A stretch of DNA of 64,000 bases, taken from Bacteroidales bacterium (lineage in GTDB: Bacteria; Bacteroidota; Bacteroidia; Bacteroidales; F082). Position numbers and translations under genes: made by a program. The stretch spans positions 23,086-87,085 of the forward strand of contig JAGBQJ010000037.1 in assembly GCA_017632935.1 (NCBI GenBank). The letters are read 5' to 3'. Position 1 is the stretch's first letter; every line of letters starts with the position of its first letter. Below are positions 4,323-21,552 of the stretch, piece by piece. Below the pieces are notes generated by a model. That model was given only the letters and a program-made list of their open reading frames with translations. It did no database searches and was not told where the DNA came from.

Positions 4323-6377
4323 ATGATTGTTTGCATTGCCGAAAAGCCAAGCGTCGCCCGCGACATCGCCAAGGTGCTGGGAGCCAACACCGCCCATGAG
4401 GGATACATGGAAGGCAACGGCTACCAGGTGACTTGGACTTTCGGCCATCTCTGCACCTTGAAGGAACCTCACGATTACACCGACCAGTGGAAGGCCTGGG
4501 CACTAAGCCGCTTGCCGATGATTCCGCCGCGTTTCGGCATCAAACTCATCACCGATAAAGGCGTGGAAAAACAATTCAAGGTCATTGAATCCTTATTTCA
4601 GAAAGCCGATGAAATAGTGAATTGCGGCGATGCCGGACAGGAGGGCGAGCTCATCCAGCGTTGGGTGATGCAGAAGGCCGCCGTGCATTGTCCCGTGAAG
4701 CGTCTGTGGATTTCCTCGCTGACTGAGGAATCCATCAAGGAAGGCTTCAAGACCTTGAAGGATCAGGCTGACTATCAATCGCTTTATGAGGCAGGTCTCT
4801 CGCGTGCTATCGGTGACTGGCTCTTGGGCATGAATGCCACACGGCTCTACACCTTGAAATATGGACAAAACCGTCAGGTACTGTCTATCGGCAGGGTGCA
4901 GACGCCCACTTTGGCGCTGATTGTCAACCGTTACCACGAAATCGTGAACTTCAAGCCAGAGGCTTATTGGGTGCTGTCGACGGTGTATCGCGACACGACC
5001 TTCACGGCCACCAAAGGCAAATACGGCGCCGTGGAAGACGGCCAAAAAGACCTGCAAAGCGTTGAGGGAAAAGAGTTTACGGTGAATGATATTTCCACCA
5101 AGAAAGGCACGGAAGCACCGCCGAGGTTGTACGACTTGACTTCGTTACAAGTGGAATGCAACAAGAAATATAACCTGTCCGCCGACCAGACCCTGCAGAC
5201 CATACAGAGCCTCTACGAGAAGAAATACACCACTTATCCTCGTGTTGACACCACCTATCTGAGTGACGACATCTATCCTAAGTGTCCCGACATTCTGGCG
5301 AAACTCACCAATTACGCTGAATACACCGCGCCGTTGGCGGGCAAGAAATTGCCCAAGAGCAAGAAGGTGTTCGACAACAGCAAGGTCACCGACCACCATG
5401 CTATCATCCCGACGGGTGTGGTGCCGCAAGGTCTGTCGTTTGCCGAGCAGCAGGTCTATGATGAGGTCTGCCGTCATTTCATCGCCGTGTTTTACCCTGA
5501 CTGTCAGTTTGCCACGACGACCGTCTTGGGCAAGGTGGAAGACGTGGAGTTCAAGACCTCGGGCAAGCAGATACTTGTACCAGGTTGGCGTGATGTCATT
5601 AAGCCTCAGAAACAGATGGATGAGGAAAAGAAGGAAGGGCAGGAGGACGAAGAGAAGACCTTGCCTATCTTCGAGAAAGGCGAGCACGGATCGCACCAGC
5701 CGTCGTTGGCCGAAAAATGGACCTCGCCACCGAAACCCTATACTGAGGCCACCTTGTTGCGAGCCATGGAAACGGCGGGTAAACTCGTTGATGACGAGTC
5801 GCTGCGTGAGGTGATGAAGGAGAACGGCATAGGGCGTCCTTCCACGCGTGCGGCCATCATCGAGACGCTGTTCAAGCGCAACTATATTAAAAAGGTGCGC
5901 AAGAGCCTTGAGCCCACACCCACGGGCATCGAGCTCATTGGCCTCATCCACGAAGACCTCTTGAAGAGCGCTGAACTGACGGGCATCTGGGAGAAGAAGC
6001 TCCGCGAGATAGAGCAGCACAAATACGAGGCCCGACAGTTCCTCGATGAGCTGAAACAGATGGTGACAGAGATTGTCACCACGGTGATGCTGGACAATAG
6101 CAACCGCCGTGTGGCTGCTGCCGTGGTGGAGCAGCCGAAGCCCAAGAAGGCGACACCTAAAAAAGCTGCTGCGCCTAAAACCAAGAAAGCCTCGGAAGGC
6201 ATGTCATCCCTGCATGGGGAAGTGCGTGGGCGGGGATCTATGCCTTCCCAAACAAATCCTGATGCCATTATCGGTCAGCCCTGTCCGCTATGTGGCAAGG
6301 GGCATATTATTAAAGGTAAGACGGCCTACGGCTGTTCCGAGTGGAGAAATGGTTGCGGGTGGCGGAAGGCGTTTTAG
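4323..6377 (+). CDS. topB: DNA topoisomerase III
   Basis: Type IA topoisomerase that passes single strands to resolve catenated DNA. The N-terminal Toprim domain starts with CIAEKPSVARDIAKVLGA and has the acidic motif as GDAGQEGELIQ, i.e. without the second Asp of the usual DxDxEGE. The catalytic tyrosine is in TYPRVDTTYL (about residue 305). A GRPSTRA motif follows near residue 505, and the C-terminal tail has a lysine/alanine-rich linker and a four-cysteine zinc finger (CPLC, then CSEWRNGC). Length 684 residues is typical for TopB of this phylum. The ATG at 4323 starts directly at the conserved beta-strand. The last codons (GWRKAF-stop) overlap the 16-base direct repeat at 6360-6375 that marks the left border of the island. 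Toprim variants of this kind are common in Bacteroidota and plasmid TopB proteins, so activity is expected. Confidence 0.95.
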   Translation: MIVCIAEKPSVARDIAKVLGANTAHEGYMEGNGYQVTWTFGHLCTLKEPHDYTDQWKAWALSRLPMIPPRFGIKLITDKGVEKQFKVIESLFQKADEIVNCGDAGQEGELIQRWVMQKAAVHCPVKRLWISSLTEESIKEGFKTLKDQADYQSLYEAGLSRAIGDWLLGMNATRLYTLKYGQNRQVLSIGRVQTPTLALIVNRYHEIVNFKPEAYWVLSTVYRDTTFTATKGKYGAVEDGQKDLQSVEGKEFTVNDISTKKGTEAPPRLYDLTSLQVECNKKYNLSADQTLQTIQSLYEKKYTTYPRVDTTYLSDDIYPKCPDILAKLTNYAEYTAPLAGKKLPKSKKVFDNSKVTDHHAIIPTGVVPQGLSFAEQQVYDEVCRHFIAVFYPDCQFATTTVLGKVEDVEFKTSGKQILVPGWRDVIKPQKQMDEEKKEGQEDEEKTLPIFEKGEHGSHQPSLAEKWTSPPKPYTEATLLRAMETAGKLVDDESLREVMKENGIGRPSTRAAIIETLFKRNYIKKVRKSLEPTPTGIELIGLIHEDLLKSAELTGIWEKKLREIEQHKYEARQFLDELKQMVTEIVTTVMLDNSNRRVAAAVVEQPKPKKATPKKAAAPKTKKASEGMSSLHGEVRGRGSMPSQTNPDAIIGQPCPLCGKGHIIKGKTAYGCSEWRNGCGWRKAF
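6360..6375 (+). repeat. Left copy of 16-base direct repeat, putative attachment site in topB 3' end
   Basis: TGGCGGAAGGCGTTTT, identical to 21537-21552. It covers the last codons of topB (W R K A F). The other copy is 15,177 bases away, at the far end of the AT-rich region. Confidence 0.65.
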
Positions 6378-6380
6378 CGT

Positions 6381-6470: not shown

Positions 6471-6474
6471 GTAT

Positions 6475-6482
6475 TATTTTTG
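6475..6482 (+). promoter_or_regulatory. Promoter -7 box of the DUF4143 ATPase gene
   Basis: TATTTTTG at 6475-6482, 29 bases before the ATG at 6512. No good -33 element at normal spacing; the upstream DNA is the 33-base repeat array. Confidence 0.5.
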
Positions 6483-6511
6483 CCAGCGGAATTATCAATT
6501 AAATTCTTGAA

Positions 6512-7885
6512 ATGTATATAGAAAGACCCATAGACGCATTGCTTCTGGAATGGAAGAACAGCCGCAATCACAAACCACTCTTGTTGAGAGGTGCACGACA
6601 GGTGGGTAAATCGTGGGCCGTGGAACACTTGGCTGAGACGTTTGAATACTTTATCGAGGTAAACTTTGAAAAAAACTCGGATATGCTGGAGTTTTTCGAG
6701 AAGATTCACGATGTGCACGAGTTGGCCAACAGGTTGGGCATGTATTTTAACACCCCAGCGGTTCCAGGCAAGACCCTGCTTTTCATTGACGAGATACAAG
6801 ACTCGGTGGATGCCATCAAGAGCCTATGGTCGTTCAAAGAGGATTTCCCGGAACTTCATGTAGTAGCTGCAGGCTCGCTTTTGGAGTTTGCTCTCAAAGG
6901 GTTGTCGTCGTTTGGTGTGGGTCGGATACGCTCGTTGTTTGTCTATCCCTTCTCTTTTGACGAGTTTTTGGTGGCAGAGGGAAAATCGGCATGGGTGAAA
7001 GCCAAGCAGGAAGCAACCTCGGAAAAGCCGTTGCTCACGCCATTGTACAATGACCTTGTACAGCATTACCGCACTTTCCTGATGGTGGGTGGTATGCCTG
7101 CCAGCGTGGCTGCCTGGATAACGACGCACGACTACCGAGAATGTCAGGCTGAGCTTGACGACATCCAGCTGACCTATTACGACGACTTCCCGAAATACGC
7201 CGACAAGGTTGATCCGACGTTGCTTCGCAACACATTGCAAAGCGTAGTGATGCAGATAGGGGAGAAATTCACCTATAGCCATGTGGACGGAGGTTATCGG
7301 GCCGAGGACGTGAAAAAGGCTTTGTCCCTGTTGTGCGATGCGGGCATCATCAAGAGGGTGAAACACACGGCTGCCAACGGCATTCCACTTGGAGCAGAAG
7401 TCAACAATAAATTCAACAAATACATCTATCTTGACAGCGGGTTGTTGCTGCGGATTCTCGACATGGACCTGGGCGGATCGCGACAGCTGACCGAGCTGAT
7501 TCTCGCCGGTACCGCCGAGGATTTGGTGAACAAAGGTGGTTTGGCAGAGATGATGCTGGGCTGGGAGTTGGTGAAGTACAACAATTCACGTTCGCAGCAT
7601 GAGCTGTTCTATTGGGAAAACACTGCCGAGGGTACGCGGTCAGAGGTGGATTACATCATCACTCGCGACCTGAAGGTGCTGCCCATCGAATGCAAGGCGG
7701 GTGTTAGCGGCAAGATGAAGAGTTTGTATGAGTTTATGCGCCAGAAGCATTTGACGGAAGCCATTCGTTGTTCGTTGGAGAACTTTGAACAGTTGGAAAA
7801 CATTGACAAGAAGGACAACAATGCTGTGCGTCATGTCCAGATACTTCCGCTGTTTGCGGTTTCTAATCTTTTTGATGTTTTTTAA
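6512..7885 (+). CDS. AAA ATPase with DUF4143 C-terminal domain
   Basis: ATP-binding protein of the AAA_14/DUF4143 family, which is abundant in Bacteroidota and archaea and has no settled function. Walker A is LLRGARQVGKSW (about residues 24-35) and Walker B is TLLFIDEIQD (about residue 90). A sensor-like stretch LHVVAAGSLLEFAL follows. The C-terminal DUF4143 part ends with an acidic/lysine pattern, RSEVDYII...LPIECKAG, that resembles a PD-(D/E)xK nuclease core. The length of 457 residues is usual for the family. The gene is monocistronic and sits between the 33-base repeats and the structured RNA. Its base composition is closer to the core genome than to the AT-rich genes that follow, so it may have a separate origin. 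Confidence 0.85.
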   Translation: MYIERPIDALLLEWKNSRNHKPLLLRGARQVGKSWAVEHLAETFEYFIEVNFEKNSDMLEFFEKIHDVHELANRLGMYFNTPAVPGKTLLFIDEIQDSVDAIKSLWSFKEDFPELHVVAAGSLLEFALKGLSSFGVGRIRSLFVYPFSFDEFLVAEGKSAWVKAKQEATSEKPLLTPLYNDLVQHYRTFLMVGGMPASVAAWITTHDYRECQAELDDIQLTYYDDFPKYADKVDPTLLRNTLQSVVMQIGEKFTYSHVDGGYRAEDVKKALSLLCDAGIIKRVKHTAANGIPLGAEVNNKFNKYIYLDSGLLLRILDMDLGGSRQLTELILAGTAEDLVNKGGLAEMMLGWELVKYNNSRSQHELFYWENTAEGTRSEVDYIITRDLKVLPIECKAGVSGKMKSLYEFMRQKHLTEAIRCSLENFEQLENIDKKDNNAVRHVQILPLFAVSNLFDVF

Positions 7886-8640: not shown

Positions 8641-9891
8641 ATGAAGAGAATTGTACTTTATGCGATTATGGCTTTATGCTTGATTAGTTCAAGTTGTGAT
8701 GCCCAAACAAGAAGAAGAGGTGGCGGTCATGAAGGAAACAGTGAGCCTACCCAAAAAACAGAAACGATTAAACCAGCTTCTAATAAGCCTGTAGTCAATG
8801 TTTATATTGAGAATTCAGGGAGTATGGATGGATATTTGAAGGGGGTTACCGAGTTTGAGTCTGCAGTATATAACTATTTGTCAGACATTAAGATTTCGGA
8901 TATTACCGACACCTTGAATTTGTATTATATCAATAGTGAGATTATTTCCTATGCGCAAAGTGCTGATGCTGATGTTATTCGAGATTTTATTAGCAAACTC
9001 GAGCCAAATGAGTTTAAAAAACGAGGAGGAAACAGAGGTACTTCTGATATTGCTGATGTAATAAAGTCAATATTAAAGGAAACTCGAGATGGTGTTATTT
9101 CCATAATGGTTACTGACGGCATTTTTTCACCAGGTAAAGGTAAAGATGCTGAAGCTTATCTTGTAAATCAAGAAATCGGAATAAAAACATCGATGGCTGA
9201 GCATTTAAATAAATATCCAAAATCGGCTGTGATTTTATATCAATTGTCTTCGAAGTTTGATGGCACTTATTATAATAAGGTGGATGCTAAGATTCCCTTG
9301 AATAATGTACAAAGGCCATTTTATATTTGGATATTTGGTCAAGCATCTGATCTGGCAGCATTGAGAGAAGCAGTTCCGGAAAACAAGTTTAATGGAAGTG
9401 GAGTTGAAAAAATGTTTTCTATTGTCGCTGGAAATCAAAGAGTTGATTATGCAGTTAAGCCAAAGTCGGGTAATTTTTGTGTTTCAAGAAATAATCCAAA
9501 AACAGAAATTAATAAACTAAAAGCGGATCGTGACGGGAAAGTGAGGTTTTCCGTAAACGCGGACTTTAAAGATTTACTGTTGGATGAATCTTATATTATT
9601 GATTCTAGAAATTATGAATTACAGATTTATGATCTTAAAGTTGCACCGAAAACAGATTCCAAATACACTCATACGATTACGCTTGCTACTGAAAATAGGA
9701 AACAGAAAAATGGAGAATTGAGCATCAAATTAATGATGACCGAACCTAATTGGGATGATGTGAACGATCCTATTGGTTTAGAAGCCGTTCCTGGAAAAAC
9801 CTATGGAATAAAGTATCAGATAAGTGGCATTTATAAGGCTTTTGCAAATAAGGCAAATTATTATACGGAGCTTATTATCAACATTAAATAA
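8641..9891 (+). CDS. VWA-like lipoprotein, first intact gene of the tubulin-like cluster
   Basis: Predicted exported lipoprotein: MKRIVLYAIMALCLISSSC gives a signal peptide with lipobox SSSC. The ATG at 8641 is chosen because the frame upstream of it has no signal-like sequence. Residues about 48-250 look like a von Willebrand A fold. The first strand ends in VYIENSGSMDGYL, a MIDAS-like DxSxS with Asn in place of Asp, and a later strand IMVTDGIFS resembles the third MIDAS loop. The C-terminal part (about 290-416) is beta-rich and unassigned. VWA domains usually hold protein-protein contacts through a metal ion; whether this one binds metal is unclear given the Asn. It begins a series of same-strand genes with short gaps up to 19497. 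Low GC compared with flanking regions. Confidence 0.7.
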   Translation: MKRIVLYAIMALCLISSSCDAQTRRRGGGHEGNSEPTQKTETIKPASNKPVVNVYIENSGSMDGYLKGVTEFESAVYNYLSDIKISDITDTLNLYYINSEIISYAQSADADVIRDFISKLEPNEFKKRGGNRGTSDIADVIKSILKETRDGVISIMVTDGIFSPGKGKDAEAYLVNQEIGIKTSMAEHLNKYPKSAVILYQLSSKFDGTYYNKVDAKIPLNNVQRPFYIWIFGQASDLAALREAVPENKFNGSGVEKMFSIVAGNQRVDYAVKPKSGNFCVSRNNPKTEINKLKADRDGKVRFSVNADFKDLLLDESYIIDSRNYELQIYDLKVAPKTDSKYTHTITLATENRKQKNGELSIKLMMTEPNWDDVNDPIGLEAVPGKTYGIKYQISGIYKAFANKANYYTELIINIK

Positions 9892-9909
9892 CTAAAAGTA
9901 ACATTTATT

Positions 9910-10350
9910 ATGAACATTATTTTTTCATGGATTTATGGATGGTTTATCTCTATTTTTGGAGAAGATCTGGATTATCACTTATTTGGTTATGAATGCCAAG
10001 GTGATGAATTTGTTTTGGGCGACAGATGCCTCTATACCCCAATTGGATTAGTTGCACTAGGTGTTGCTATTCTGTTTTTTGTGCTGTATTATTACATAGT
10101 TAATTCAGCAAAATTAAACAGGTGGTGGCATTGGGTAATCGTGATGCTATTGGTTGGTATTGTTAATTTCTTTGTCGGTCACGCATGGACTGTTGCCGAA
10201 TTGCCCAATATGGGAGGATGTTTGACAGTCTATGTTGGTGATTGCTGGTTGTTTGGATTAGCAAACGCTATTGTGTCCGCTCTTTTCTTCATTATTATCT
10301 CGTTCGCAGGGAAATGGGGAAGTAGTCAATGTAAACATACACCTTTCTAA
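9910..10350 (+). CDS. Small multi-spanning membrane protein of the cluster
   Basis: 146 residues with four probable membrane segments: an N-terminal amphipathic/hydrophobic start (about 1-16), then about 40-62 (PIGLVALGVAILFFVLYYYIV), about 74-92 and about 110-135. Cysteines occur in the loops (YECQGDEFVLGDRC and GGCLTVYVGDC), possibly periplasmic disulfides. No family recognised. It follows the VWA lipoprotein by 18 bases and precedes the tubulin-like gene by 34 bases, so co-transcription is likely. A role as membrane anchor or channel component of the system is inference from position only. Confidence 0.65.
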   Translation: MNIIFSWIYGWFISIFGEDLDYHLFGYECQGDEFVLGDRCLYTPIGLVALGVAILFFVLYYYIVNSAKLNRWWHWVIVMLLVGIVNFFVGHAWTVAELPNMGGCLTVYVGDCWLFGLANAIVSALFFIIISFAGKWGSSQCKHTPF

Positions 10351-10384
10351 TTTAACTGAGTATTAACAAATTAAATAAGCAAAC

Positions 10385-11806
10385 ATGAAAGTATATGTAT
10401 TTGGTATAGGAGGAACAGGATCTCGCGTTATGCGTGCTATGACTATGCTTTTAGCTTCTGGTGTGGAATGCAAGGCCGACGCTATTGTTCCGATTATTGT
10501 CGACCCAGATGCTGCGGGTGGTGATGTTGAACGTGCAGCCACTTTGATGCGGCATTATGGTGAAATTAGAAGCAAATTGGACTTTTCATCCAAAAAGCAA
10601 AACAGGTTTTTCCGTACAGAAATTATGGAAACCATGCCTAATTTTCGATTACCTTTAAGCAACACAGAGGATTGCCGCTTTGATGAATACATGGATTTGA
10701 GCGGCATGTCGAAAGAGAACAAAGCTTTGGCTAGATTATTGTTTTCGCAGAAAAACCTTGACTCTGACATGAAGATTGGATTTAAAGGCAATCCCAATGT
10801 GGGTAGTGTGGTTTTGAATCAGTTCGAGGATTCCATACATTTCCAGAATTTTGCGAATGACTTTACCGCACAAGATAAGATATTTATCATTTCTTCCATC
10901 TTTGGTGGAACAGGAGCTAGCGGCTTCCCGCTTTTGTTGAAGACGTTGCGCACTAGCAATAACATCGCAAATCCTAATCTTGTGAATAATGCTCACATTG
11001 GTGCCATTACGGTGTTGCCCTATTTCCAAGTGCAACAAGATGATGAGTCTTCGATAGATTCAGCTACTTTTGTTTCAAAGGCGAAATCAGCTTTGTCGTA
11101 CTATCTTCGTTCCATTAGTCAAAACAACACCATTGACGATCTCTATTACGTGGGAGATGATACCCGAACAACATACGAGAATGTTGAAGGTGGTGCAGAG
11201 CAAAAAAACAATGCTCATTTTGTAGAATTGATTTCAGCTTTAGCATTGATAGACTTTGCCAATTCACAAAATCCGAATCCAGAAAGGTCTAATGCAGAGT
11301 ATTTGCAGACTGTACACAAGGAGTTTGGTATTGAAAAAGATTCCAATGAAATAACTTTTGTGGAACTTGGACAAAAATCAAAAAAGCAACTTCGCAAGCC
11401 CATGACCCAGTTTTTATTGTTTGCTAAATACTTGGATGAATACAGGGACTTTATGAGTCAGCCATGGGTGGTTGACCGCAAATTTGACGATAACTTCTTT
11501 GATAGCGATTTTATTTCTACATTAAAGACGGTACAAAGCGAGTATATAGGATGGCTTGCTGAAATGGCTGGGCAACAAAGAGCTTTTACACCATTTAATT
11601 TGCATCGTGATCCTAATAGAGTATTTGATTTGGTAAAAGGCAATTCTCCGAGAGGAGTTTTCTTTGATAAAAACTTCAAATTTTTTGATAATCGTTTGAA
11701 CGGAACGCGTGGCGAAAGCAAATCGGGAGAAAAAGAACAACAATTTGCGGAGTTGTTCTATTTGGCTACAGAAAAATTGGTAAAGGACAAATTAAATATT
11801 GATTAA
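10385..11806 (+). CDS. Tubulin/FtsZ-like protein
   Basis: The N-terminus KVYVFGIGGTGSRVMRAM (residues about 2-19) is a Rossmann-type start seen in tubulin-like proteins. At about residues 173-180, after a hydrophobic strand (IFIISSIF), comes GGTGASG, equivalent to the GGGTGSG tubulin signature that binds the nucleotide phosphates. Overall length is 473 residues, within the range of the tubulin_2-like family. The C-terminal third is charged and unassigned. I infer a cytoplasmic GTP-binding protein, possibly forming filaments. Tubulin-like proteins of this type have been linked by gene context to VWA-domain and OmpA-family proteins in predicted membrane-remodelling systems, which fits the neighbours here. 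Start ATG 10385 is directly at the conserved strand. The next gene starts 2 bases after the stop. Confidence 0.8.
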   Translation: MKVYVFGIGGTGSRVMRAMTMLLASGVECKADAIVPIIVDPDAAGGDVERAATLMRHYGEIRSKLDFSSKKQNRFFRTEIMETMPNFRLPLSNTEDCRFDEYMDLSGMSKENKALARLLFSQKNLDSDMKIGFKGNPNVGSVVLNQFEDSIHFQNFANDFTAQDKIFIISSIFGGTGASGFPLLLKTLRTSNNIANPNLVNNAHIGAITVLPYFQVQQDDESSIDSATFVSKAKSALSYYLRSISQNNTIDDLYYVGDDTRTTYENVEGGAEQKNNAHFVELISALALIDFANSQNPNPERSNAEYLQTVHKEFGIEKDSNEITFVELGQKSKKQLRKPMTQFLLFAKYLDEYRDFMSQPWVVDRKFDDNFFDSDFISTLKTVQSEYIGWLAEMAGQQRAFTPFNLHRDPNRVFDLVKGNSPRGVFFDKNFKFFDNRLNGTRGESKSGEKEQQFAELFYLATEKLVKDKLNID

Positions 11807-11808
11807 TT

Positions 11809-14800
11809 ATGGCAGTTTTTAGATTATACAATATCCAAGGCAACAACAATATAGTTGATTGGCAGGTGTCTCAAGTGTATGGCACTCAGGCTATCGGTGA
11901 AATCTCAGACCCAGACGGAGCTACGGCCAAAAAAGAAATAACATCAATTCCTTCACCTTTTGCAAGAATCGACTTGGTAAAGACTGCATTTAGGGAAGTG
12001 ACGAACATGGTAAGAGGTGGTCGAGATAAGAAAGCGGCGTTAAACGGGATAACCATTTATCATAAAATGGTGTCCGAAATGTTTGATGTGGCTCAGCTGT
12101 TCTTTAATTTTAACCGCTTTAAGGACAAGTTCGAAATTCTTGTGTGGGATAGAGATAGAGATTTGGATGTGAACAACATATTAGGTAATACGCTCAAACT
12201 TTATCTGGAATCGGATGCGAAAGGAAATGATCCATACAATTTTGGGAAGATGAGAAGGATTTATTTGCTGAATTATATAGGTCCAGACCGTCCTTCGGAC
12301 ATGAATATTGTTGGTGGAACTTCACCTACGACACTTTTCTTTTCGTCGGCGAATAGCTTAAGCTATGTCTCAAGGAACGTTATGTTTGATACTGATAGGC
12401 CATTTGACGATGGTTTTAGTCCCTTGTACAAACGCAGTTTTGATTTCCAAAAATACATGTTCGCATTAAGGAAATCTAACAGGAGGTTTGCCACAGAGTT
12501 TCCTGAGGTTAACGATTATCTTGATTTGACCTATGGCTGCCTTTCCAATGATGAGAAAAGTGAAATTGACCGACTGACAGAGACTACTATCAACGATTAT
12601 GAACCTATTGGTGTGGGTGAAAGGGGGCAGGATTTTCTTGAGATTCTTGGCCATCCTTTCCATAAAATATCTCAAGCTCCTAACTGGGATAGCGATTTTA
12701 AGATCAGAACAAGTATCTATTCTGGTGACAAACTTCCTTTTGTTTTACCTATAGAAAAGGGTAATGTATATGCAAATTATGTATATACAAGTAGCATTTG
12801 GGGACAGGAAAATGCTGCACCCTATGTTGCATTGGATAGCAATAAAAAAGTCATCCCGTGGAAACAACGCCGTCTTCCTAAAGTGAACGATGAGTATCCT
12901 TTCTTGACTATCAGCGACTTTTTGGAGGATGTTGTAATCCGTTTGCCATACAAGCAAAATAGTGACGATTACTTTGATGGAGGTTATGTATGCCGTGATG
13001 AGAACGAGAAATGCAGTTATCTTTTACCACTGACTGATTTGTTTTTCCAATTCTTTAGTGTAAAGGAACTGAAAGAGACTATTCCTGGAACAAATAAAAA
13101 AATGCTTGAGTTTGTTGAAAATGTAGGCGGTGTAAAAGTGTTGTTACGTGTTCCTGTTAAAAAAGGTTTTATTGAGTATAGTCGTATCTATTATAAGGAC
13201 GCCAGTCCTGATGTGAGTGAGAAAAAGAATGACGGTGGTTTGATTGAAACCAAATTCGGATTGGGAATCATGCCGTTTGTCCGTTTCCCAGATGATGTGG
13301 ATAAGCATTATCGCGTCGCGTTTTATGACAAAGGTAAATCAAATACTACTCTTTCTTTTAGAGATTTGAATAACAATAACGACCTTGTAACAAATAGAGT
13401 GCCTCGTGCTGAAAAGGGCGTTTCTGGTTGTAGCCATGAAGCTTATGTTGTAGAAAGCAATTTTGACAGAATTAAGGTCCGAATGGGACAATATGGGGGT
13501 TATATTGTTCCAAAATTCCAAAAAGTCAATGAAACAAATGGAACCTTTACTTTTGCTGTTGATTTTGGAACTACCAATACCCACATTGAGTATTGCACTG
13601 ATGCTAATAAAACGCCAAAGGCATTTGACGTTAAAAAGGATGAAAAGCAAATTCATAAAATGCATGAGTTTTATGATGATCCAGATATTCGAATAGCCTT
13701 TGAACAGGATTTTATCCCCGATACTATTGGCGATAAATACAATTTCCCCATGCGTACAGTGTTTGCCAGTCGAAAAGGAATGAAATTGGAAAATAATCCC
13801 ATGCCCTTGAGCGATGGTAATATTCCATTTTTGTATGAAAAAGACATTATGCCTATTTGGGATACAATTAATACTGAATTGAAATGGGGAAGTGTTTCTG
13901 AGCGTTTACTTGAAATGCATCTGGAAACACTATTCATTCTCATGCGCAACAAAGTGGCTATAAATAATGGTAATCTTTCTGCAACTAGAGTGATTTGGTT
14001 CTATCCAGCCAGCATGACGGTGGCAAAGGTCAATCAATTCAATCGGATTTGGAAAGATGCATACGAAAAATATTTCGGTAGTAATTCGCAAAACAATGTG
14101 ATTAGCATTTCTGAATCAAAAGCTCCGTATCTACACTTCATTTCATCACAGGGAGCAGCTGATGAAATAGTTACTATTGATATTGGTGGAGGCACTACGG
14201 ATGTTTTTGTTGTTGAGGAGCAAAACGATCGAATGTTGCTTTCGTTCAGATTTGCTTCCAATGCTATTTTTGGAGACGCATACAATAGCAATCCTCAGAA
14301 AAATGGATTCGTATGCAAGTATAAAGATGATTTCAAAAAGAAATTGGATAGCAATGGTCTGCTTGAACTGTCTCAGGCCTTGACTCAAATTGAGGCACAA
14401 GGGAAATCTTCGGATATTGTAGCTTTCCTGTTCTCATTGGTAGGTGATAAAGTAAAAAGCAACAAAGAACTCGATTTCTTACGCAAACTCAAAGGAGATG
14501 ATCGTATGCGTTATGTTTTCATCATCTTTTATGGATCAATCCTGTATTTCTTGGCTAAGGCTATGAAAGCTAAGGGCCTGGTTAAACCAAAGACAATAGC
14601 GTTCAGTGGAAATGGTGCCAAGACGCTCCATATTCTTTCAGAAGAAGATAGTATGGTTGCTCGTTTTGCCAAACTAATTTTTGATGGAGTTTATGGTGAC
14701 AGCACTGGTACTATTGAGGTGATGATGGAAAAGAATCCCAAGATAGCCACTTGTAAAGGAGGTATCGAAAGACCTAATGCTCAACCGTATGATCAAATTG

Positions 14801-15186
14801 GTAATATCAAAACTATTTTTGTAGGAAATGATTTTGCATCTACCAACGATGAAAAGCTTACTTATGCTAATATTACAGATAGTATTAAGAACGAAGTAGT
14901 AGAGTCGGTGAAGGATTTCTTTGTCTTCTTGTTTGAACTTCATAAAAACAATAATGAGTTTCTCATCAATAATCTTGCAGCCGATTCCTCTATTTTCAAT
15001 GAAGTGAAGGAGTTTTGTTTGGGAGATGAAGGAATGCAGCTGTTGCAAGTGTCAATGTCAAAGGGAATCGCTAACAAACGTGATACCGACGGAGTGAATG
15101 ATGAAACCCAACTAGAGGAAACGTTATTCTTCTATCCATTGGTGGGATTCCTTCATAATTTGGCATACAAAATCTATAAGATGTAA
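11809..15186 (+). CDS. Very large protein with Hsp70/actin-type ATPase domain
   Basis: 1125 residues. The second half has the three signature loops of the actin/Hsp70/sugar-kinase fold. Phosphate 1 is FAVDFGTTNTHIEY (about residues 580-595), phosphate 2 is VTIDIGGGTTDVFVV (about 787-801), and an adenosine-type loop is IAFSGNGAKT (about 928-938). The first 570 residues show no motif I recognise. No signal peptide, so cytoplasmic. It starts 2 bases after the tubulin-like gene, implying translational coupling and probably similar amounts of both proteins. Proteins of this size and fold are sometimes annotated as SrfB-like virulence factors; I regard that as possible, not proven. A tubulin-like GTPase and an actin-like ATPase encoded back to back is unusual. 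Confidence 0.75.
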   Translation: MAVFRLYNIQGNNNIVDWQVSQVYGTQAIGEISDPDGATAKKEITSIPSPFARIDLVKTAFREVTNMVRGGRDKKAALNGITIYHKMVSEMFDVAQLFFNFNRFKDKFEILVWDRDRDLDVNNILGNTLKLYLESDAKGNDPYNFGKMRRIYLLNYIGPDRPSDMNIVGGTSPTTLFFSSANSLSYVSRNVMFDTDRPFDDGFSPLYKRSFDFQKYMFALRKSNRRFATEFPEVNDYLDLTYGCLSNDEKSEIDRLTETTINDYEPIGVGERGQDFLEILGHPFHKISQAPNWDSDFKIRTSIYSGDKLPFVLPIEKGNVYANYVYTSSIWGQENAAPYVALDSNKKVIPWKQRRLPKVNDEYPFLTISDFLEDVVIRLPYKQNSDDYFDGGYVCRDENEKCSYLLPLTDLFFQFFSVKELKETIPGTNKKMLEFVENVGGVKVLLRVPVKKGFIEYSRIYYKDASPDVSEKKNDGGLIETKFGLGIMPFVRFPDDVDKHYRVAFYDKGKSNTTLSFRDLNNNNDLVTNRVPRAEKGVSGCSHEAYVVESNFDRIKVRMGQYGGYIVPKFQKVNETNGTFTFAVDFGTTNTHIEYCTDANKTPKAFDVKKDEKQIHKMHEFYDDPDIRIAFEQDFIPDTIGDKYNFPMRTVFASRKGMKLENNPMPLSDGNIPFLYEKDIMPIWDTINTELKWGSVSERLLEMHLETLFILMRNKVAINNGNLSATRVIWFYPASMTVAKVNQFNRIWKDAYEKYFGSNSQNNVISISESKAPYLHFISSQGAADEIVTIDIGGGTTDVFVVEEQNDRMLLSFRFASNAIFGDAYNSNPQKNGFVCKYKDDFKKKLDSNGLLELSQALTQIEAQGKSSDIVAFLFSLVGDKVKSNKELDFLRKLKGDDRMRYVFIIFYGSILYFLAKAMKAKGLVKPKTIAFSGNGAKTLHILSEEDSMVARFAKLIFDGVYGDSTGTIEVMMEKNPKIATCKGGIERPNAQPYDQIGNIKTIFVGNDFASTNDEKLTYANITDSIKNEVVESVKDFFVFLFELHKNNNEFLINNLAADSSIFNEVKEFCLGDEGMQLLQVSMSKGIANKRDTDGVNDETQLEETLFFYPLVGFLHNLAYKIYKM

Positions 15187-15245
15187 GTGTTTAACGAGGC
15201 AGCAATAGGTTGTTAAACCTGTTGCTGCCTTTAAATAGAGGAGCC

Positions 15246-16160
15246 ATGAAAAAAAGGTGCTTTTTATTGTTGTTTTTTTGTGGATTTTTTGCTTATTGTA
15301 GTGCAGCTTCTACATTAGATTTAAACAAAATACTGCAAGCTTCCGGTGTGCTTATTATTAAGGTTGATACGGTAACAATAGTAGATTCAACTAATGTCAT
15401 TACCCTTGATAATATAATGTTTGAGAATTTCAAATCCCGTATCGTTGACACTACTGACTACAAGGCTTCCGTTGCTCGTTTAACAGGGCAAATAGAGGGT
15501 TTACAATTACAATTGTCAGAGGAAAATGGGAAGAAATCTTCATTGATGAAAATCTTTCCTTTTTTATTATTAGGTTTAGTTTTCATTTTGTTTGTCTTGT
15601 TTTTCGTGGATAGAGCAAAAAGAAAAGATAGGTTAAAAGAAGAGGTAGTAAGAATTGTTCTAGAGAGCAAACGGCTGAAGAGTTGGCGTGATGATAGCGA
15701 GGCAAAACCAAGAGTCCAATCTACTGTTCAAAATGTCAAAACGTATGATCGAGAAATCAATGATTTGCTACGAAGGATAGGTGCTTTGGAGGACAAGAAC
15801 CAAAAGGAGGAACAATCTTATCGGAAGACCGAAATACCGATTTCGCAACCTATACCTACAAAGAATAATATGATGTTATATGGAGATTTCATCAATGACG
15901 GCTGTTTCTCTAGGGTGAAGGAAAACCCAGATGATGACACTAACTTTGAATTGCATTTAATAAACGAAAGAACTGCATCTTTCATTATCTACCGACCTGC
16001 ATGCCCTCGTATTATCAGTAATCCTATGGCTTTCTTGCAAGGATGTGAAAAGCAGGTTTTGGGAAATACTATAGTATCAATTGTAAAAGAAGGAACTGCA
16101 ATGAAAGATGATAATGGGAAATGGAGAATAAGCGATGAATTAAAGGTTGAAATTAGATAG
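15246..16160 (+). CDS. Signal peptide/TM coiled-coil protein with cluster-specific C-terminal domain (paralog 1)
   Basis: 304 residues from the ATG at 15246, chosen because it is followed at once by a signal sequence (KKRCFLLLFFCGFFAYCSAAS). A short outer domain (about 22-95) leads to a membrane segment near 104-124 (FPFLLLGLVFILFVLFFV). A cytoplasmic coiled-coil/charged linker follows, then a C-terminal domain of about 90 residues with DFINDGCFSRV, FELHL, ASFIIY and LQGCEKQVLG. The same domain ends the next protein. The topology puts the shared domain in the cytoplasm with the tubulin-like and actin-like proteins, and the N-terminus in the periplasm. The stop codon is TAG, 4 bases before the next ATG. 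No family recognised. Confidence 0.7.
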   Translation: MKKRCFLLLFFCGFFAYCSAASTLDLNKILQASGVLIIKVDTVTIVDSTNVITLDNIMFENFKSRIVDTTDYKASVARLTGQIEGLQLQLSEENGKKSSLMKIFPFLLLGLVFILFVLFFVDRAKRKDRLKEEVVRIVLESKRLKSWRDDSEAKPRVQSTVQNVKTYDREINDLLRRIGALEDKNQKEEQSYRKTEIPISQPIPTKNNMMLYGDFINDGCFSRVKENPDDDTNFELHLINERTASFIIYRPACPRIISNPMAFLQGCEKQVLGNTIVSIVKEGTAMKDDNGKWRISDELKVEIR

Positions 16161-16164
16161 TGCT

Positions 16165-17172
16165 ATGCGAAAGCGATTTGTTTTAGGACTTCTGACAATG
16201 TTGTTGTGTTATTCGTTTGGAATGGCGCAGAAAACATATACAGTAACTGGAAATGGAGATGGAGGATTGCTTTTGATTGCAAAAAAGAATAATATTTCAT
16301 TAGAGCAATTACGTGAATGGAATAATAAATGTGATGATTTGGTTAAGAAAGGAGATGTATATTATGTAGAAGACCCCAAAGAATATACAAAAAATGCTGA
16401 AACGCAACTCCAATTTGATTCAAATATGGAGTTGAATAAAAGCAAAGAAGAATTTGGCGATACCAACGGCGTTGTAAGTAGTGGCGATTCGAATACACTA
16501 CAAAATGATACATATGCTAATCCATCTGGAAAAACAAATCCTCGTTTTTGGTGGTTTTGGCTCATCATTGGAATTATTACAGGAGCCTTCATTTGGGAAA
16601 TTGGGGTGAGAAAACGGATAATTCGAGACAAAGAGAATCAGAATTCTCCTAAACAGAATCTTGATAATTCTTTTGAAATAGGTAGTCTGAAGAATGAAAT
16701 CCAAAAACTTACCAAGGAAAAGCACCAGCTTAAGAAAAAGGTCGAAAGCCTTGAGGAAGAGAAAGGAGAGTTGCTTGAGGAGAATATTAGACTTGGAGAA
16801 AGAATGGATGATGCTTTCAGCAGAAATATTGATGAAAAGGCATCCAATAATAACCATAATACCTATAATAAATGTAGTGATGTATTATATGCTGATTTTA
16901 TAAACGAAGGTTGTTTTTCTCGTGTAACTGAAATTCCGAATGATGATTCAAATTTCGAGTTGCATTTGAAGAATGAAAAAACGGCAGCTTTTATTATCTA
17001 TTTGCCTGCTATGCCTAGAATTGTAAGTAATCCCGCTGCATTTCTGCAAGGATGTGACAAGCAGGTTCTTGGTCAAATAGGCGAGGTGGCAATAAATAGG
17101 GAGGGATTAGCTCAATATGATACAGATGACAAATGGAAAGTGATTAATAAGTTGAATGTTATAATCAAGTAA
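16165..17172 (+). CDS. LysM-like/TM/coiled-coil protein with cluster-specific C-terminal domain (paralog 2)
   Basis: 335 residues from the ATG at 16165, which begins a signal peptide (RKRFVLGLLTMLLCYSFGMAQ). Residues about 23-70 resemble a LysM module (TYTVTGNGDGGLLLIAKKNN, ISLEQLREWN), which would bind peptidoglycan. A low-complexity stalk leads to a membrane segment near 129-150 (FWWFWLIIGIITGAFIWEI). A strong heptad coiled coil (about 175-215, KLTKEKHQLKKKVESLEEEK) and the same C-terminal domain as in the preceding protein follow (DFINEGCFSRV, AAFIIY, LQGCDKQVLG). The design suggests a link from the cell wall to the cytoplasmic components. It overlaps nothing and is followed after 4 bases by the channel-like gene. 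Confidence 0.7.
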   Translation: MRKRFVLGLLTMLLCYSFGMAQKTYTVTGNGDGGLLLIAKKNNISLEQLREWNNKCDDLVKKGDVYYVEDPKEYTKNAETQLQFDSNMELNKSKEEFGDTNGVVSSGDSNTLQNDTYANPSGKTNPRFWWFWLIIGIITGAFIWEIGVRKRIIRDKENQNSPKQNLDNSFEIGSLKNEIQKLTKEKHQLKKKVESLEEEKGELLEENIRLGERMDDAFSRNIDEKASNNNHNTYNKCSDVLYADFINEGCFSRVTEIPNDDSNFELHLKNEKTAAFIIYLPAMPRIVSNPAAFLQGCDKQVLGQIGEVAINREGLAQYDTDDKWKVINKLNVIIK

Positions 17173-17176
17173 GACT

Positions 17177-18796
17177 ATGCATTATCTCATAATTTTTGTT
17201 ATTATTGCTATAATTGTTTTCTTTCAAATCAAGAGATACAAAGACACAATAAGGAAAATCAATATCTTCAAGAATGTCTTTGCTTCAAAAAGGGAAAGTT
17301 ACACTTATGGTAACTTACAGCAAATTGAGAAATCTGTCATCGATGCCAAAGATGAAGACTTGAAGATGATGCTAAAAATAGCTGGAGCCGATGTTGAAGA
17401 TTTCTACTTTGTGGAAAGAGGCGAGGATGGGGATGAGTATTTTGCGTTCAACACTTCTGCCGCCCCAAAGGCTCTTATAGAAAACAAATCTTTATCGAAG
17501 GGGATTTCATCAAGCCACTGCAACCCAATTTTCAATGAGATTAAGGATGCTATCAATAGTTATCTTTCCAACAACAAAGGTTCGGTTAGTGATTTCCATC
17601 TAATGAAAGACATTGTTGACCGTAATTGTGATGCCAAAGAGGAAGAAATCAATACACAAATCCCAGTTCCCCTTTATCTTGGTTTAATGGGCACAATGGC
17701 AGGTATTTTGATTGGCATTGGTTATCTTTGGTTTTCTGGCGATTTGTCGGCGCTTTTGAATGCAGAAAATGACAATTCTGGAGCGGAAGGAGTGGAGGCT
17801 TTACTTGGTGGTGTTGCATTGGCAATGATTTCGAGCATTTTGGGTATTTTCTTTACCACAAGAGGCTCAATGAAAGCTAAGGATGCTAAAGCCGAAGAAG
17901 AAAAGAACAAGCATTTGTTTTTGAGTTGGATGCAAGCTAATTTGTTGCCTAACCTTTCGAATGATACTGCCCAAATGCTGGAAAGAATGTCGAGCAACCT
18001 AGTGGCGTTCAATAATACTTTTTCCAACAATACGACAGAATTGGGAAAGGCGTTGTCACAAGTTAATGAAGCAACAAAACTGCAAGGTCAGTTAATTCAA
18101 GCGGTTGAGAAACTGGCGGATAAAAACATTTCTATGCAGAATCTTGAAGTATATAATGCGCTGAAGAACAGCTCTGAAGAGATAGGAACTTTGGCAAAGT
18201 ATTTGAATAGTTCGAATGAATACCTTGCTGCCGTTCGTGAACTGAATGAAAAACTGGATAAGGATGAAAATCGAACGAAAGCTGTGGAAATGATGGCTGT
18301 ATTCTTTGAGAATGAAGTGACACAAATAGAACAAAGGAAGGCTTTTATTAGCAAAACGGTTGGTGAAATTGATAGTCAATTGGAGGAACAATTGCGGAAA
18401 CTTGGTGAACACGCAAGTGAAAATGTGAATAATTTCTATTTGGCTTTGGGTAAGCAACAGGATGCGTTACAAAAAAAATTAGATGAAACACAGGTCGTTG
18501 TGGATGAACTAAAGAACTTGAGTCCTATAAAGGATAGTATTTCCAGATTTGAGAAAGCTATCACAGAACAGAATCGTAAGATTGATCGACTGACAGAGAG
18601 TATCAAGTTGCTTGCAGAGGCAAAAGTAGAAGACTCTATTCGTGTACATCGCGCACATATTGAGCATGGAATTCCAGTTTGGAAAATAGTAATAATTTGG
18701 AGTTCCGTGGTATTAGGTTTTTTGGTGCTTTTGTCGTTAATTATTGCAAATTGGAATGCAATATATTCATTTTTGTTGGATGTTTTGAGGTTTTGA
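17177..18796 (+). CDS. MotA/TolQ/ExbB-type proton-channel subunit, ZorA-like
   Basis: 539 residues. A short N-terminal membrane helix (about 3-18) is followed by a cytoplasmic stretch, then two characteristic helices: about 162-187 (IPVPLYLGLMGTMAGILIGIGYL) and about 205-229 (EALLGGVALAMISSILGIFF). This is the MotA/TolQ channel core with its G-rich turn. A long helical cytoplasmic tail follows (about 235-490, many coiled-coil heptads), and an additional membrane helix lies near 500-525. The long coiled-coil tail is a feature shared with ZorA of the Zorya anti-phage system, where it reaches into the cytoplasm; flagellar MotA lacks it. The partner gene downstream has the matching MotB-like plan. 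I infer an ion-driven inner-membrane motor. No flagellar genes are present in the window. Confidence 0.8.
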   Translation: MHYLIIFVIIAIIVFFQIKRYKDTIRKINIFKNVFASKRESYTYGNLQQIEKSVIDAKDEDLKMMLKIAGADVEDFYFVERGEDGDEYFAFNTSAAPKALIENKSLSKGISSSHCNPIFNEIKDAINSYLSNNKGSVSDFHLMKDIVDRNCDAKEEEINTQIPVPLYLGLMGTMAGILIGIGYLWFSGDLSALLNAENDNSGAEGVEALLGGVALAMISSILGIFFTTRGSMKAKDAKAEEEKNKHLFLSWMQANLLPNLSNDTAQMLERMSSNLVAFNNTFSNNTTELGKALSQVNEATKLQGQLIQAVEKLADKNISMQNLEVYNALKNSSEEIGTLAKYLNSSNEYLAAVRELNEKLDKDENRTKAVEMMAVFFENEVTQIEQRKAFISKTVGEIDSQLEEQLRKLGEHASENVNNFYLALGKQQDALQKKLDETQVVVDELKNLSPIKDSISRFEKAITEQNRKIDRLTESIKLLAEAKVEDSIRVHRAHIEHGIPVWKIVIIWSSVVLGFLVLLSLIIANWNAIYSFLLDVLRF

Positions 18797-18828
18797 TACA
18801 TGTTGGAAATGTGTAGTTTTAGTTTGTC

Positions 18829-19497
18829 ATGAAAAAAAACAAAAAAGAATCCTATTTTTGGACAAGTTATTCTGACTTGATGACGAGTTTATTCTTTGTC
18901 ATGCTTGTATTGTTTATTTTGACAATTGTATTGCTTCGAAACAAGATGATTGAACTTGAGAGAGAAAGAAATATAGCAGAAGGAGAAAAAGCCGCTACAG
19001 AAGCACAATTGACAAAGATTACGGAACTTGAAAAATCAATACAGAATATTGACACTGTTTATTTTTTGTATAACGCTGATTATAAGATGCATGTGCTAAA
19101 GACAAAAGTGAAATTTAAGAGTGGTAGCGCAAATTTTGGAGATTTGACTTTTGAAGCTAGGCAGGAGTTATATGCTGTTAGGGATCTGCTAAAGGAATCG
19201 ATGGAATCTTTTGTGAAGACTAATCCGGAAGCTTCATATTTACTGATAATAGAAGGCCAAGCTTCTTTTGATGATTACATCCATAACAATGAGTTGAGCT
19301 ATCAAAGGGCGTTGGCGTTGTTCAAGTTTTGGTTTCCAAATCAAAAAACAACGAACTTGAGGTTTTACAATCTGCCTTGTGAGGTCATCATCGCAGGCGC
19401 GGGTTGTATGGAAGGCAAACCAAGGGCTCCTTTGAATGAGGATAATCAACGTTTTTTAATACGAATACTACCTAAACCAGGATTAATAGGAGAATAA
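18829..19497 (+). CDS. MotB/OmpA-like stator partner, ZorB-like
   Basis: 222 residues. The N-terminus has the conserved MotB-type start: a short basic tail, then WTSYSDLMTSLFFVMLVLFIL, with Asp16 at the position of the proton-carrying aspartate of MotB/ZorB just before a single membrane helix. A short charged helical linker leads to a C-terminal domain (about 90-215) of OmpA/peptidoglycan-binding type. KFKSGSANF begins it, LLIIEGQASFDD follows, and LSYQRALALFKF matches the usual NxxLSxxRA helix. It pairs with the MotA-like gene 32 bases upstream. The pair would form a stator complex anchored to the wall. The NxxLSxxRA region is somewhat degenerate. Confidence 0.8.
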   Translation: MKKNKKESYFWTSYSDLMTSLFFVMLVLFILTIVLLRNKMIELERERNIAEGEKAATEAQLTKITELEKSIQNIDTVYFLYNADYKMHVLKTKVKFKSGSANFGDLTFEARQELYAVRDLLKESMESFVKTNPEASYLLIIEGQASFDDYIHNNELSYQRALALFKFWFPNQKTTNLRFYNLPCEVIIAGAGCMEGKPRAPLNEDNQRFLIRILPKPGLIGE

Positions 19498-19517
19498 AGA
19501 ACATAAAACAAGGTAGT

Positions 19518-19996
19518 ATGAAATACCAAAGGAATAATATGACTTATTATGCTATTCTTCAAAAAAAACTGTCACTACAGCTAAGCCAAATGTTGAAAGA
19601 ATAAAACAAGATTTAGTCGGTCATCAGCTTTCCGAGGGTTTTGAAAACGAACTGAATGCATTTAATGCTCGAGCAAAGATGTTTTATGTGCTTCCTGATG
19701 CTGAAGATTGGAAACTGGAGTTCGTGAATTCTTTGGGTGTAACTATAGTGAAGACTCACAAATATGATGACTTGGTCAATTTTGAGATTATGGATGACGG
19801 ATGGGGCGGCGTGGATGCATTGTTTATCACAAATAAAGCCGAAATAGAATTAGGCGTGGGTGTTGAAGTTGTTGCTAATGGTAGTAGAAAACGCTATGCC
19901 GTAAGGGTGGGTCCAGACAAAAAATCCCAAGTGGGAGGGTTGTTTGGAGGTGAGAATATGACTTTATACGAGGTGGAGTTTGTTGAAAGATTTTGA
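19518..19996 (+). pseudogene. Probable lipoprotein gene with broken 5' end
   Basis: The ATG at 19518 opens a frame that ends after 29 codons. A different frame, open from 19538, reads LLCYSSKKTVTTAKPNVER and then a folded domain down to TGA at 19994-19996. LLCYSS looks like the end of a lipoprotein signal, so a frameshift between 19520 and 19568 has separated start and body. There is an A8 tract at 19561-19568, and nine A would also restore a continuous frame. The body is about 145 residues with a repeated short beta pattern (IVKTHKYDDLVNFEIMDDGW). It could still be translated from the internal ATG at 19679. It closes the gene cluster after the MotB-like gene. No family recognised. Confidence 0.55.
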
Positions 19997-20052
19997 AGAA
20001 GTAATCAGGATTAAACCTGACTCAAATATCTATTAAACAAAACATAACTACT

Positions 20053-20370
20053 ATGAAAATGAAAGAATTGAAAATTACCACATTGTTTCTTTTGGCGTTT
20101 ATCTTGACAGGGTGCTCTTCGCAGATGGATCGTGATGCGACTAAGATGGCAAAACGTGTCGTTGAACTGGAACGGTTGCAAAAACGTATGGAAGACCGCT
20201 CTAATTTGAGGGGCAAAAGGATGTCGGAACAAGAATACGAGCAGTATTCGAGAGAAAACGTTGAATACGCCAATAAAATGTTGGAGAAGTATAGTGAAAC
20301 GCCTGGACAGAAGAAGGAGTTTTACCAACTCGTAGAAAGGAAGGCAAAAGAGATGAAGAATAAACAATAA
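20053..20370 (+). CDS. Small helical lipoprotein
   Basis: 105 residues. MKMKELKITTLFLLAFILTGC is a lipoprotein signal with lipobox LTGC. The mature part (about 84 residues) is almost entirely charged helix (ELERLQKRMEDRSN, YEQYSRENVEYANKMLEKY), likely a single coiled coil lying along the membrane or cell wall. It sits 57 bases after the broken lipoprotein gene and 52 bases before another broken secreted-protein gene, so it may be the accessory tail of the island cluster. It resembles in size and charge the broken lipoprotein at 8252-8636. Function unknown. Confidence 0.6.
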   Translation: MKMKELKITTLFLLAFILTGCSSQMDRDATKMAKRVVELERLQKRMEDRSNLRGKRMSEQEYEQYSRENVEYANKMLEKYSETPGQKKEFYQLVERKAKEMKNKQ

Positions 20371-20421
20371 CTCAATATTAACCATACTGCAGGCAACAGG
20401 ATAAAGACCGCCGCGAATAAT

Positions 20422-21320
20422 ATGAAATACAAGGCACTGATTTTTGTTTCATTATTTGTCTTGTCATCAATCTGTACCTTTGCGCAGATGGGATTACAAG
20501 ATTATGACCAATTGGCACCTAAGTATTCAGGCCATATACCAACCTATAAACTGTCACAGACTGGATTAAAAGGCAAAATTCGTACAATTGTTTTAAAAAC
20601 GGGGGAAGGAGAAGAAAGGTTCGGAGAAGTTGGTTTTAAGGATTATAATGATGCTGAATCAACAATCCTCTCATTTGACGAGAAAGGTAATTTGTTGAAT
20701 TGCTCTTGTTTCGGAAAAATTGGTGGTGATAGGATGATTAAATCAAAGGTGGTGTATTCTTATGATAACAAGAACAGGCTTTTAAGAATTGACCAATAGG
20801 ATTCTACTGGTGAAAGGCTGAAATCCTGGCTATATAATTATGATCAGAATAAAGGATTAAGTTCGGTTAAGGTGGTTGATATTTTGCACGATGGAAGTGC
20901 TGAGTTTGAATTAGATGAAAATGGAGGAATACTAAAATGGAGAGAATATGACAACGATGGCAATCTGAAAGATGTAACCAATTTTGATAATAGATATACA
21001 TATTTCAGTAATGGAAAACTAAAGTTGGTTGCAGTGTATGTGTTCGATCAACTCGGAAGATTAATAACATTAGACGACTCAGGGAGGATTGTTGAAGATG
21101 TGTATTATGAAGGAGACGGCGTTTGGAGCGAGAAAAGCAAATACTCATATGACTCGAAAGGTTTTTTTCCACGTTTGAAAAAACCAACATTGTTTCAGGT
21201 AGTCAAGGAGTTTGGAATTATTCCAGTGTTTATGATAACCAAGGAAATGTCATAAAAACGTACAGAGGTGATGCTTCAACTGGTATATATTTAACCACAT
21301 TTGAAATCGACTATTGGTGA
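20422..21320 (+). pseudogene. Secreted YD-repeat-like protein, broken by a stop and a frameshift
   Basis: Starts with a signal peptide (MKYKALIFVSLFVLSSICTFAQ). The frame meets TAG at 20797-20799 and continues open behind it to about 21165. There a frameshift, near T7 or A6 tracts at 21163-21184, moves the rest (VYDNQGNVIKTYRGD...) into another frame ending in TGA at 21318-21320. Repaired, it would be about 300 residues with repeated YDxxGN/FDEKGN motifs typical of RHS/YD-like beta-sheet proteins. The intact gene at 59622-60449 encodes a similar kind of protein. It lies near the right border of the island. Confidence 0.65.
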
Positions 21321-21536: not shown

Positions 21537-21552
21537 TGGCGGAAGGCGTTTT
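21537..21552 (+). repeat. Right copy of 16-base direct repeat, putative attachment site
   Basis: Identical to 6360-6375. In frame, the codons from 21534 read G W R K A F stop (GGC TGG CGG AAG GCG TTT TGA), the same peptide end as topB but with a different glycine codon and stop codon. This looks like a left-over topB 3' end. Confidence 0.6.

Follow-up and report, generated by a model that had tools for sequence, protein, structure and literature searches.

Results

Gene content of the cluster

The window analysed here is a 64,000-nucleotide stretch of a Bacteroidales bacterium genome (contig JAGBQJ010000037.1, positions 23,086 to 87,085), in which eight genes at 8641-19497 lie on the plus strand with gaps of 2-59 bases between neighbours, a spacing that makes a single transcription unit likely. 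An initial annotation, made from the sequence alone, had described this cluster as an envelope-spanning machine that combines a VWA-like protein, a small membrane protein, a tubulin-like protein, a 1125-residue protein with Hsp70/actin loops, paired wall-to-cytoplasm linkers and a ZorAB-type stator, and each of these parts was found again in our analysis (Table 1).

Table 1. Features of the cluster and of the surrounding island (window positions; TM, transmembrane; aa, amino acids)
Feature	Position	Strand	Basis or remark
VWA-like lipoprotein (core)	8641..9891	+	conserved lipobox Cys, E/DxSxS
Small protein, three predicted TM helices (core)	9910..10350	+	hydropathy; equivalent position in relatives
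TUB, tubulin/FtsZ-superfamily protein, predicted (core)	10385..11806	+	473 aa
ACT, 1125 aa (core)	11809..15186	+	actin-superfamily domain, residues 577-995
Linker CC1	15246..16160	+	signal peptide, one TM, coiled coil, shared C-terminal domain
Linker CC2	16165..17172	+	signal peptide, weakly LysM-like periplasmic part, one TM, coiled coil, shared C-terminal domain
MotA/ZorA-like stator protein, long coiled-coil tail	17177..18796	+	NCBIfam ZorA E 6.3e-4, TM motifs
MotB/ZorB-like protein, TM Asp16, OmpA-like C-terminal part	18829..19497	+	PADLOC ZorB E 1.2e-12
105-aa protein, no family match; cluster membership uncertain	19679..19996	+	family scans
Small putative lipoprotein in island; cluster membership uncertain	20053..20370	+	
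AAA_14/DUF4143 ATPase in island	6512..7885	+	Pfam; PADLOC candidate PDC-S01 E 7.9e-129
Left 16-bp direct repeat	6360..6375	+	3' end of topB; perfect match to 21537-21552
Right 16-bp direct repeat	21537..21552	+	

The Pfam and defence-profile searches that the annotation had proposed were run at first on ten window proteins, the eight of the cluster and two encoded downstream, and none of the ten passed a curated Pfam or NCBIfam cut-off. With PADLOC the MotB-like protein matched ZorB; the remaining matches listed were weak ones to coiled-coil or TM models of unrelated families (best E 1.2e-4). Pfam contains GAP1 and DO-GTPase models, and no P-loop GTPase or GAP1 family was matched by the window proteins at E <= 1 in Pfam or NCBIfam. 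Single-sequence family searches named few of the cluster proteins, and profiles and structure models were used for the rest.

The core proteins

The VWA-like lipoprotein has no family match, Pfam VWA included, and carries MIDAS-like residues in which E often replaces the first D; its lipobox Cys and E/DxSxS motif are kept in 27 aligned rows. The modelled structure places TUB in the tubulin/FtsZ superfamily, with the superfamily GTPase fold and the GGxGxG signature loop both present and with modest significance in Pfam and Foldseek (21.3 bits against Pfam Tubulin_2, cut-off 27; a Tubulin_2 search of its own genome gave no match). The ACT domain has an actin/Hsp70-type fold with phosphate loops, a fold that does not separate filament-formers from kinases or chaperones. 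SrfB, considered as an identity for ACT, was dropped, as Pfam did not list it. TUB and ACT are predicted cytoplasmic proteins encoded together with a putatively exported VWA-like lipoprotein and a three-TM (3-TM) protein.

Linkers and stator

CC1 and CC2 have a common C-terminal domain of ~80 residues, which iterated profile search recovered in 26 proteins, or 25 once the duplicate locus L033 is discounted. Both linkers would run from the periplasm through one TM helix to a cytoplasmic domain, in agreement with the layout first proposed. The resemblance of CC2 to LysM is slight (sub-threshold Pfam LysM match, E 0.034; PHROG endolysin E 2.7e-5). At locus L048 (genome G200) the linker C-terminal domain is fused to the end of ACT, and MotA comes directly after ACT, without an intervening linker gene. 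The strongest hint of a contact between the linkers and ACT is this fusion.

The stator appears to be ZorAB-like, with a TM Asp and a domain of the wall-binding type. Among solved structures, the 16-row MotB profile matched type I ZorB 8VVN best (E 1.1e-9), and it also matched 8QYD (E 3.3e-7), which has a chain in common with ZorAB entries, as well as flagellar MotB (E 6.7e-5). The TM Asp is present in 15 of the 16 rows, the exception being one of two tandem copies at L027, where a second, degenerate MotB-like copy lacking this residue (L027:17345-17938) adjoins the intact one. The MotA side is weaker: the NCBIfam ZorA match falls far below its cut-off, PADLOC did not list ZorA for the window protein, and the matches of the MotA profile to ZorA chains (8VVI E 1.2e-4, 8QYK E 0.0058, 8VVN E 0.048) stand among unrelated coiled coils. 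The TM motifs of MotA are conserved, and its gene adjoins a ZorB-like gene in 16 regions; genome G601 has a MotA-like gene and no recognised MotB. Another MOTA profile match in the window (31335-32219) was discarded as a coiled coil.

Distribution and gene order

Relatives of TUB, called at E <= 0.001, were found in 20 of 295 genomes (17 of 183 genera) in a sample of the order and in 13 of 395 genomes (11 of 171 genera) in a sample of the phylum, the genome of the window being counted in both. This genome carries two cluster copies whose TUB proteins are 38% identical. Full-length relatives measure 465-600 aa, and a single scan of genome contigs yielded 8 loci. Neighbourhoods were compared in 48 regions from Bacteroidota and two cyanobacterial plasmids, a count reached after removal of the duplicates L033, L102, L105 and L106; the TUB places G128:C69, G017:C203 and G278:C100 stand outside this comparison.

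TUB is followed by ACT in 44 of the 48 regions (the exceptions are G239b, the decayed G680, G035 and G036), a VWA-labelled gene occurs in 34, a 3-TM or similar small membrane protein lies immediately upstream in 35, a labelled linker is present in 21 and MotA with MotB in 16, all these counts being lower bounds, as contig edges cut some regions short and the label missed at least one linker (L075). The stator is absent from 32 regions, some of them cut by contig ends, and among the 33 with both VWA and ACT it is present in 15. The conserved unit is VWA-3TM-tubulin-actin, and the motor pair is exchangeable. Of the eight genes whose co-occurrence the initial annotation had proposed to check, the four of the core form the constant set; the stator, which the annotation had treated as part of the system, is present in the window and is not a constant component, and the occurrence of the genes without each other, which it had named as counter-evidence, applies to the motor pair and not to the core.

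Six plasmid records contain TUB relatives, five of them cyanobacterial and one from Prevotella (1.77 Mb), and ACT was detected by tblastn in two of the six. The two cyanobacterial plasmids that were examined closely keep VWA, the small membrane protein, TUB and ACT, with the VWA gene on the opposite strand in the Gloeothece plasmid. IMG/VR contributed 5 TUB loci. At L071:7925-13067 (G680) the cluster is decayed, with TUB split in two, ACT missing and MotA and MotB short. Divergent TUB-ACT operons at L077, L079 and L084 have OmpA, TerD and PP2C as neighbours, which we take to be a possible bridge to Ter-type stress systems.

The island and its mobility

The cluster seems to have been transferred horizontally, on an acquired island. 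It is flanked by perfect 16-bp repeats 15.2 kb apart, the left one at the 3' end of topB, and 0 of 100 shuffles gave two matches at up to 2 mismatches. GC content drops from ~0.50 to 0.35-0.39 across 7.5-21 kb; because the ATPase gene just inside the left repeat has a host-like value (0.499 at 6001-7500), it is perhaps of different origin from the remaining island. Two of the 12 other genomes of the genus, G694 and G688, yielded both flanking genes; in these two, the homologue of the window from 22.3 kb onward begins no more than ~75 bases after topB, and the 15.2 kb between the repeats is therefore absent there, together with ~0.7 kb beyond the right repeat that includes a phosphoribosyltransferase gene. 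Searches of 7 same-genus genomes for the genes that flank the second copy (L035/L036), run without a positive control, gave no match.

In the TUB tree, several deep forks of which are weak or long-branched, the two copies of one genome fall on separate branches and an oral Prevotella groups with other families. A tyrosine integrase lies just upstream at L104 and a large terminase ~8 kb upstream at L103. At the candidate viral loci L101/L102, a PHROGs scan of six L101 neighbours found no phage structural gene. The terminase contig (L103:53-1729 and 9992-21243) also has a TUB-ACT operon, the ACT of which is 1504 aa long, and another ACT-like open reading frame (ORF).

Exchangeable modules and neighbouring hydrolases

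The place 3' of ACT and linker is taken by MotA-MotB, by a zinc-ribbon/TM/SH3 module (L037; at L074 the SH3 match is below cut-off), or by WG-repeat or unnamed membrane proteins. Hydrolases found at these loci include Trypsin_2 (L042, E 1.4e-23), retropepsin (L037, E 7e-16; L049, E 3.8e-14), Endonuclease_NS (L101, E 7e-48; L036, E 4.1e-48), SNase (L044, E 4.1e-29), the L,D-transpeptidase family YkuD (L074, E 9.4e-22), and a transglutaminase (E 2.6e-12) and Exo_endo_phos (E 3.4e-9) at L029; at L027 a trypsin-like peptidase adjoins a NucA-type nuclease. Endonuclease_NS, with 5 members, is the commonest Pfam family in the flank set, which consists of 138 proteins that we chose from 272 collected, hydrolases included.

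In 16 genomes, the region within 10 kb of the cluster accounts for 3 of the 29 matches to Endonuclease_NS, 4 of the 25 to retropepsin and 2 of the 71 to Trypsin_2, or 9 observed against 0.68 expected, and the computed P of 4e-8 is too small because these three families were picked after they had been noticed. The retropepsin match in G680 is a sub-threshold fragment and the Endonuclease_NS match in G200 crosses stop codons. The sole Endonuclease_NS match lies near the cluster in the window's own genome (G000), in G286 and in G200; that in G000 adjoins the second copy and not the window copy.

A strong hydrophobic stretch occurs within the first 45 residues of 16 of 17 payload candidates, that of the L029 transglutaminase lying at 41-57, and 9 have a called lipobox-like Cys. 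No such stretch was seen in three other proteins, one of them with DUF4357; the DUF4357 label is valid for L101 only, the L050 gene in the equivalent place having no Pfam match. The HtrA-like trypsin-PDZ gene of L081-type loci was set aside from the trypsin payloads after the first grouping.

Discussion

Relation to described systems

By sequence comparison, the cluster is best assigned to none of Zorya, the FtsZl1 operons and the DO-GTPase/GAP1 systems. With Zorya it has in common the ZorA/ZorB-like stator, the long MotA tail and the wall-binding type domain, and the nucleases linked to some relatives are a further likeness. Hu et al. in 2025 reportedly described a need of Zorya for wall binding by ZorB, for the ZorA tail and for ion flow. 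PMC11890865 likewise states these three requirements. Unlike Zorya, the cluster has a tubulin-actin-VWA unit as its core and a stator that is not constant, and in PADLOC none of the ten window proteins matched ZorC, D, E, F or G at E <= 1.

FtsZl1 has been tied, with VWA and OmpA proteins in operons that also encode a GTPase/kinase, to membrane remodelling by Makarova and Koonin in 2010 (PMC2875224); as far as the sections available to us go, its type protein has 1051 aa and most members carry an extended coiled coil and a helical C-terminal domain. Those operons resemble the cluster family in combining tubulin-superfamily proteins, VWA proteins and OmpA-type domains, but by the same sections they carry a GTPase where the cluster has an actin-like gene, and the window TUB is, judged by its length and model, too short for the extended coiled coil. 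In 296 phylum genomes Tubulin_2 gave nine matches: four are TUB family members, of which G576 (28.4 bits, with neighbours) is over the cut-off and G310, G385 and G478 are below, and the five strong ones lie in ORFs of 997-1215 aa. The TUB family is best seen as a short, distant cousin of FtsZl1.

Kaur et al. in 2020 (PMC7159879) predict NTP-dependent immune systems that have variable effectors and contain tubulin-like, HSP70-like and vWA proteins; in the parts of the paper available to us, the overview groups GTPases with tubulin and HSP70, and the detailed section presents the themes as non-overlapping, within GTPase-GAP1 systems. The cluster has tubulin-like, actin/HSP70-type and VWA-like proteins and variable modules in common with the DO-GTPase/GAP1 systems as described there. 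The NucA-trypsin System 3 of the same paper sets a trypsin-like peptidase beside a NucA-type nuclease, as at L027, its description in those parts being without tubulin, actin or stator. SNIPE, compared by the description in its abstract (PMC13190303), has in common only the idea of a membrane nuclease that cuts DNA at injection, and that abstract names no cytoskeletal or motor part; in the available text of a paper on MotAB evolution (PMC12505986), tubulin, FtsZ and VWA are absent. No report of a tubulin-like, actin-like and VWA/stator set was found in the open-access library searched, outside of which most subscription papers and preprints lie, and the initial annotation had likewise known of no such system. 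What is new in comparison with the papers searched is the tubulin-actin-VWA core and the combination of this core with a stator. A possible role of tubulin-like and VWA proteins in conflict systems is prior art.

A candidate defence machine and its alternatives

Our results point to a modular, transferred and apparently envelope-spanning machine whose most likely role is protection against phages or incoming DNA, a conclusion in which we place about even confidence. The initial annotation had left defence and remodelling as an undivided choice, and it is mobility, patchiness and the nuclease and protease neighbours that favour defence. Together with a constant core and variable modules, these features follow the conflict-system pattern of Kaur et al., so far as the available parts of that paper describe it (PMC7159879). 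Several results weigh against a defensive role. The window copy has no recognised nuclease or protease, and its payload place holds just the 105-aa protein and the small lipoprotein; Trypsin_2 by itself is not enriched near the cluster (2 against 0.40 expected, P 0.06). PADLOC found few defence genes among the 138 flank proteins, in which 28 family models were matched at E <= 1e-8, most by one protein, the three-member ones being trypsin-like models. TUB and ACT were not found in 50,697 phage records by single-sequence tblastn, no integrase was recognised among the island genes scanned, and the kinship of some TUB relatives with FtsZl1 also suits membrane remodelling.

A machine for membrane or wall remodelling or for envelope stress, in which TUB and ACT act like FtsZ-FtsA at the inner membrane and in which the envelope is reshaped or mended by the stator and by the parts of LysM-like, OmpA-like and L,D-transpeptidase type, is appreciably less probable, though it is the alternative with the most in its favour. 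The tubulin and actin folds recall FtsZ and FtsA, the L,D-transpeptidase at L074 and an OmpA-domain protein at L077 would fit, and the TUB family membership of four of the nine Tubulin_2 matches agrees with the proposal that Makarova and Koonin made for FtsZl1-VWA-OmpA operons (PMC2875224, as available to us). A patchy, island-borne cluster with two unlike copies in one genome is less easily reconciled with such a task, however, and the nucleases, retropepsins and trypsins are hard to account for. These same exported nucleases, proteases and lipoproteins beside the cluster could be weapons or protection in a contact-dependent machine directed against neighbouring cells, but we consider this unlikely, as the scanned genes include no recognised secretion-system gene, toxin delivery domain or immunity pair, and the linkers and NTPases face inward. 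Slightly less likely still is that the cluster serves to maintain or position the mobile element that carries it, by cytoskeletal segregation as with TubZ or ParM: plasmid, integrase-linked and terminase-linked copies are in keeping with it, whereas most parts are exported or membrane-bound, phage records gave no match and the island genes scanned include no recognised gene for partition or replication.

If the machine is defensive, TUB and ACT would co-assemble into a membrane-tethered polymer that the linkers hold to the wall, and the VWA protein and the wall-bound stator would sense a disturbance of the envelope such as phage DNA injection. Ion flow and NTP turnover could then convert sensing into a mechanical or conformational output, which in relatives may release or activate an exported protease and/or nuclease, and the freed hydrolase would cut incoming DNA at the envelope or kill the cell; in the window copy the payload would be unrecognised, missing or encoded elsewhere. 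That all of this amounts to an undescribed class of immunity, with a TUB-ACT assembly, linkers, a rotary stator and a VWA sensor firing proteases or nucleases at phage DNA entry, and with a widespread, mobile core and exchangeable drive and payload modules, is a tentative proposal that we put forward with well under even confidence.

The tubulin-like and actin-like NTPases are linked and travel together, accompanied by a VWA-like lipoprotein and often by a putative rotary stator. If the system is immune in function, cytoskeletal proteins would enter prokaryotic defence, and the ion-driven motor guarding the envelope would have a second setting beside Zorya. A four-gene core with swapped modules also makes the role of a VWA-associated tubulin-like protein testable in culturable Bacteroidota.

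Additional observations at the insertion site

Two short island ORFs (20422-20799 and 20872-21255) look like fragments of one secreted protein, and outside the right repeat a phosphoribosyltransferase-like gene (21652-22230) has a sub-threshold Pfam match. Tandem units of ~33 bases stand right after the left repeat (6378-6480), possibly as a recombination arm site. Two genomes of the same genus lack a stop at the end of topB, whose frame continues into the following lipoprotein gene to give ORFs of 1024 aa (L122:2287-5361) and 999 aa (L123:2187-5186). The window has its insert at this topB/lipoprotein junction (compare 6360-6377 and 22245), and topB there has its own stop.

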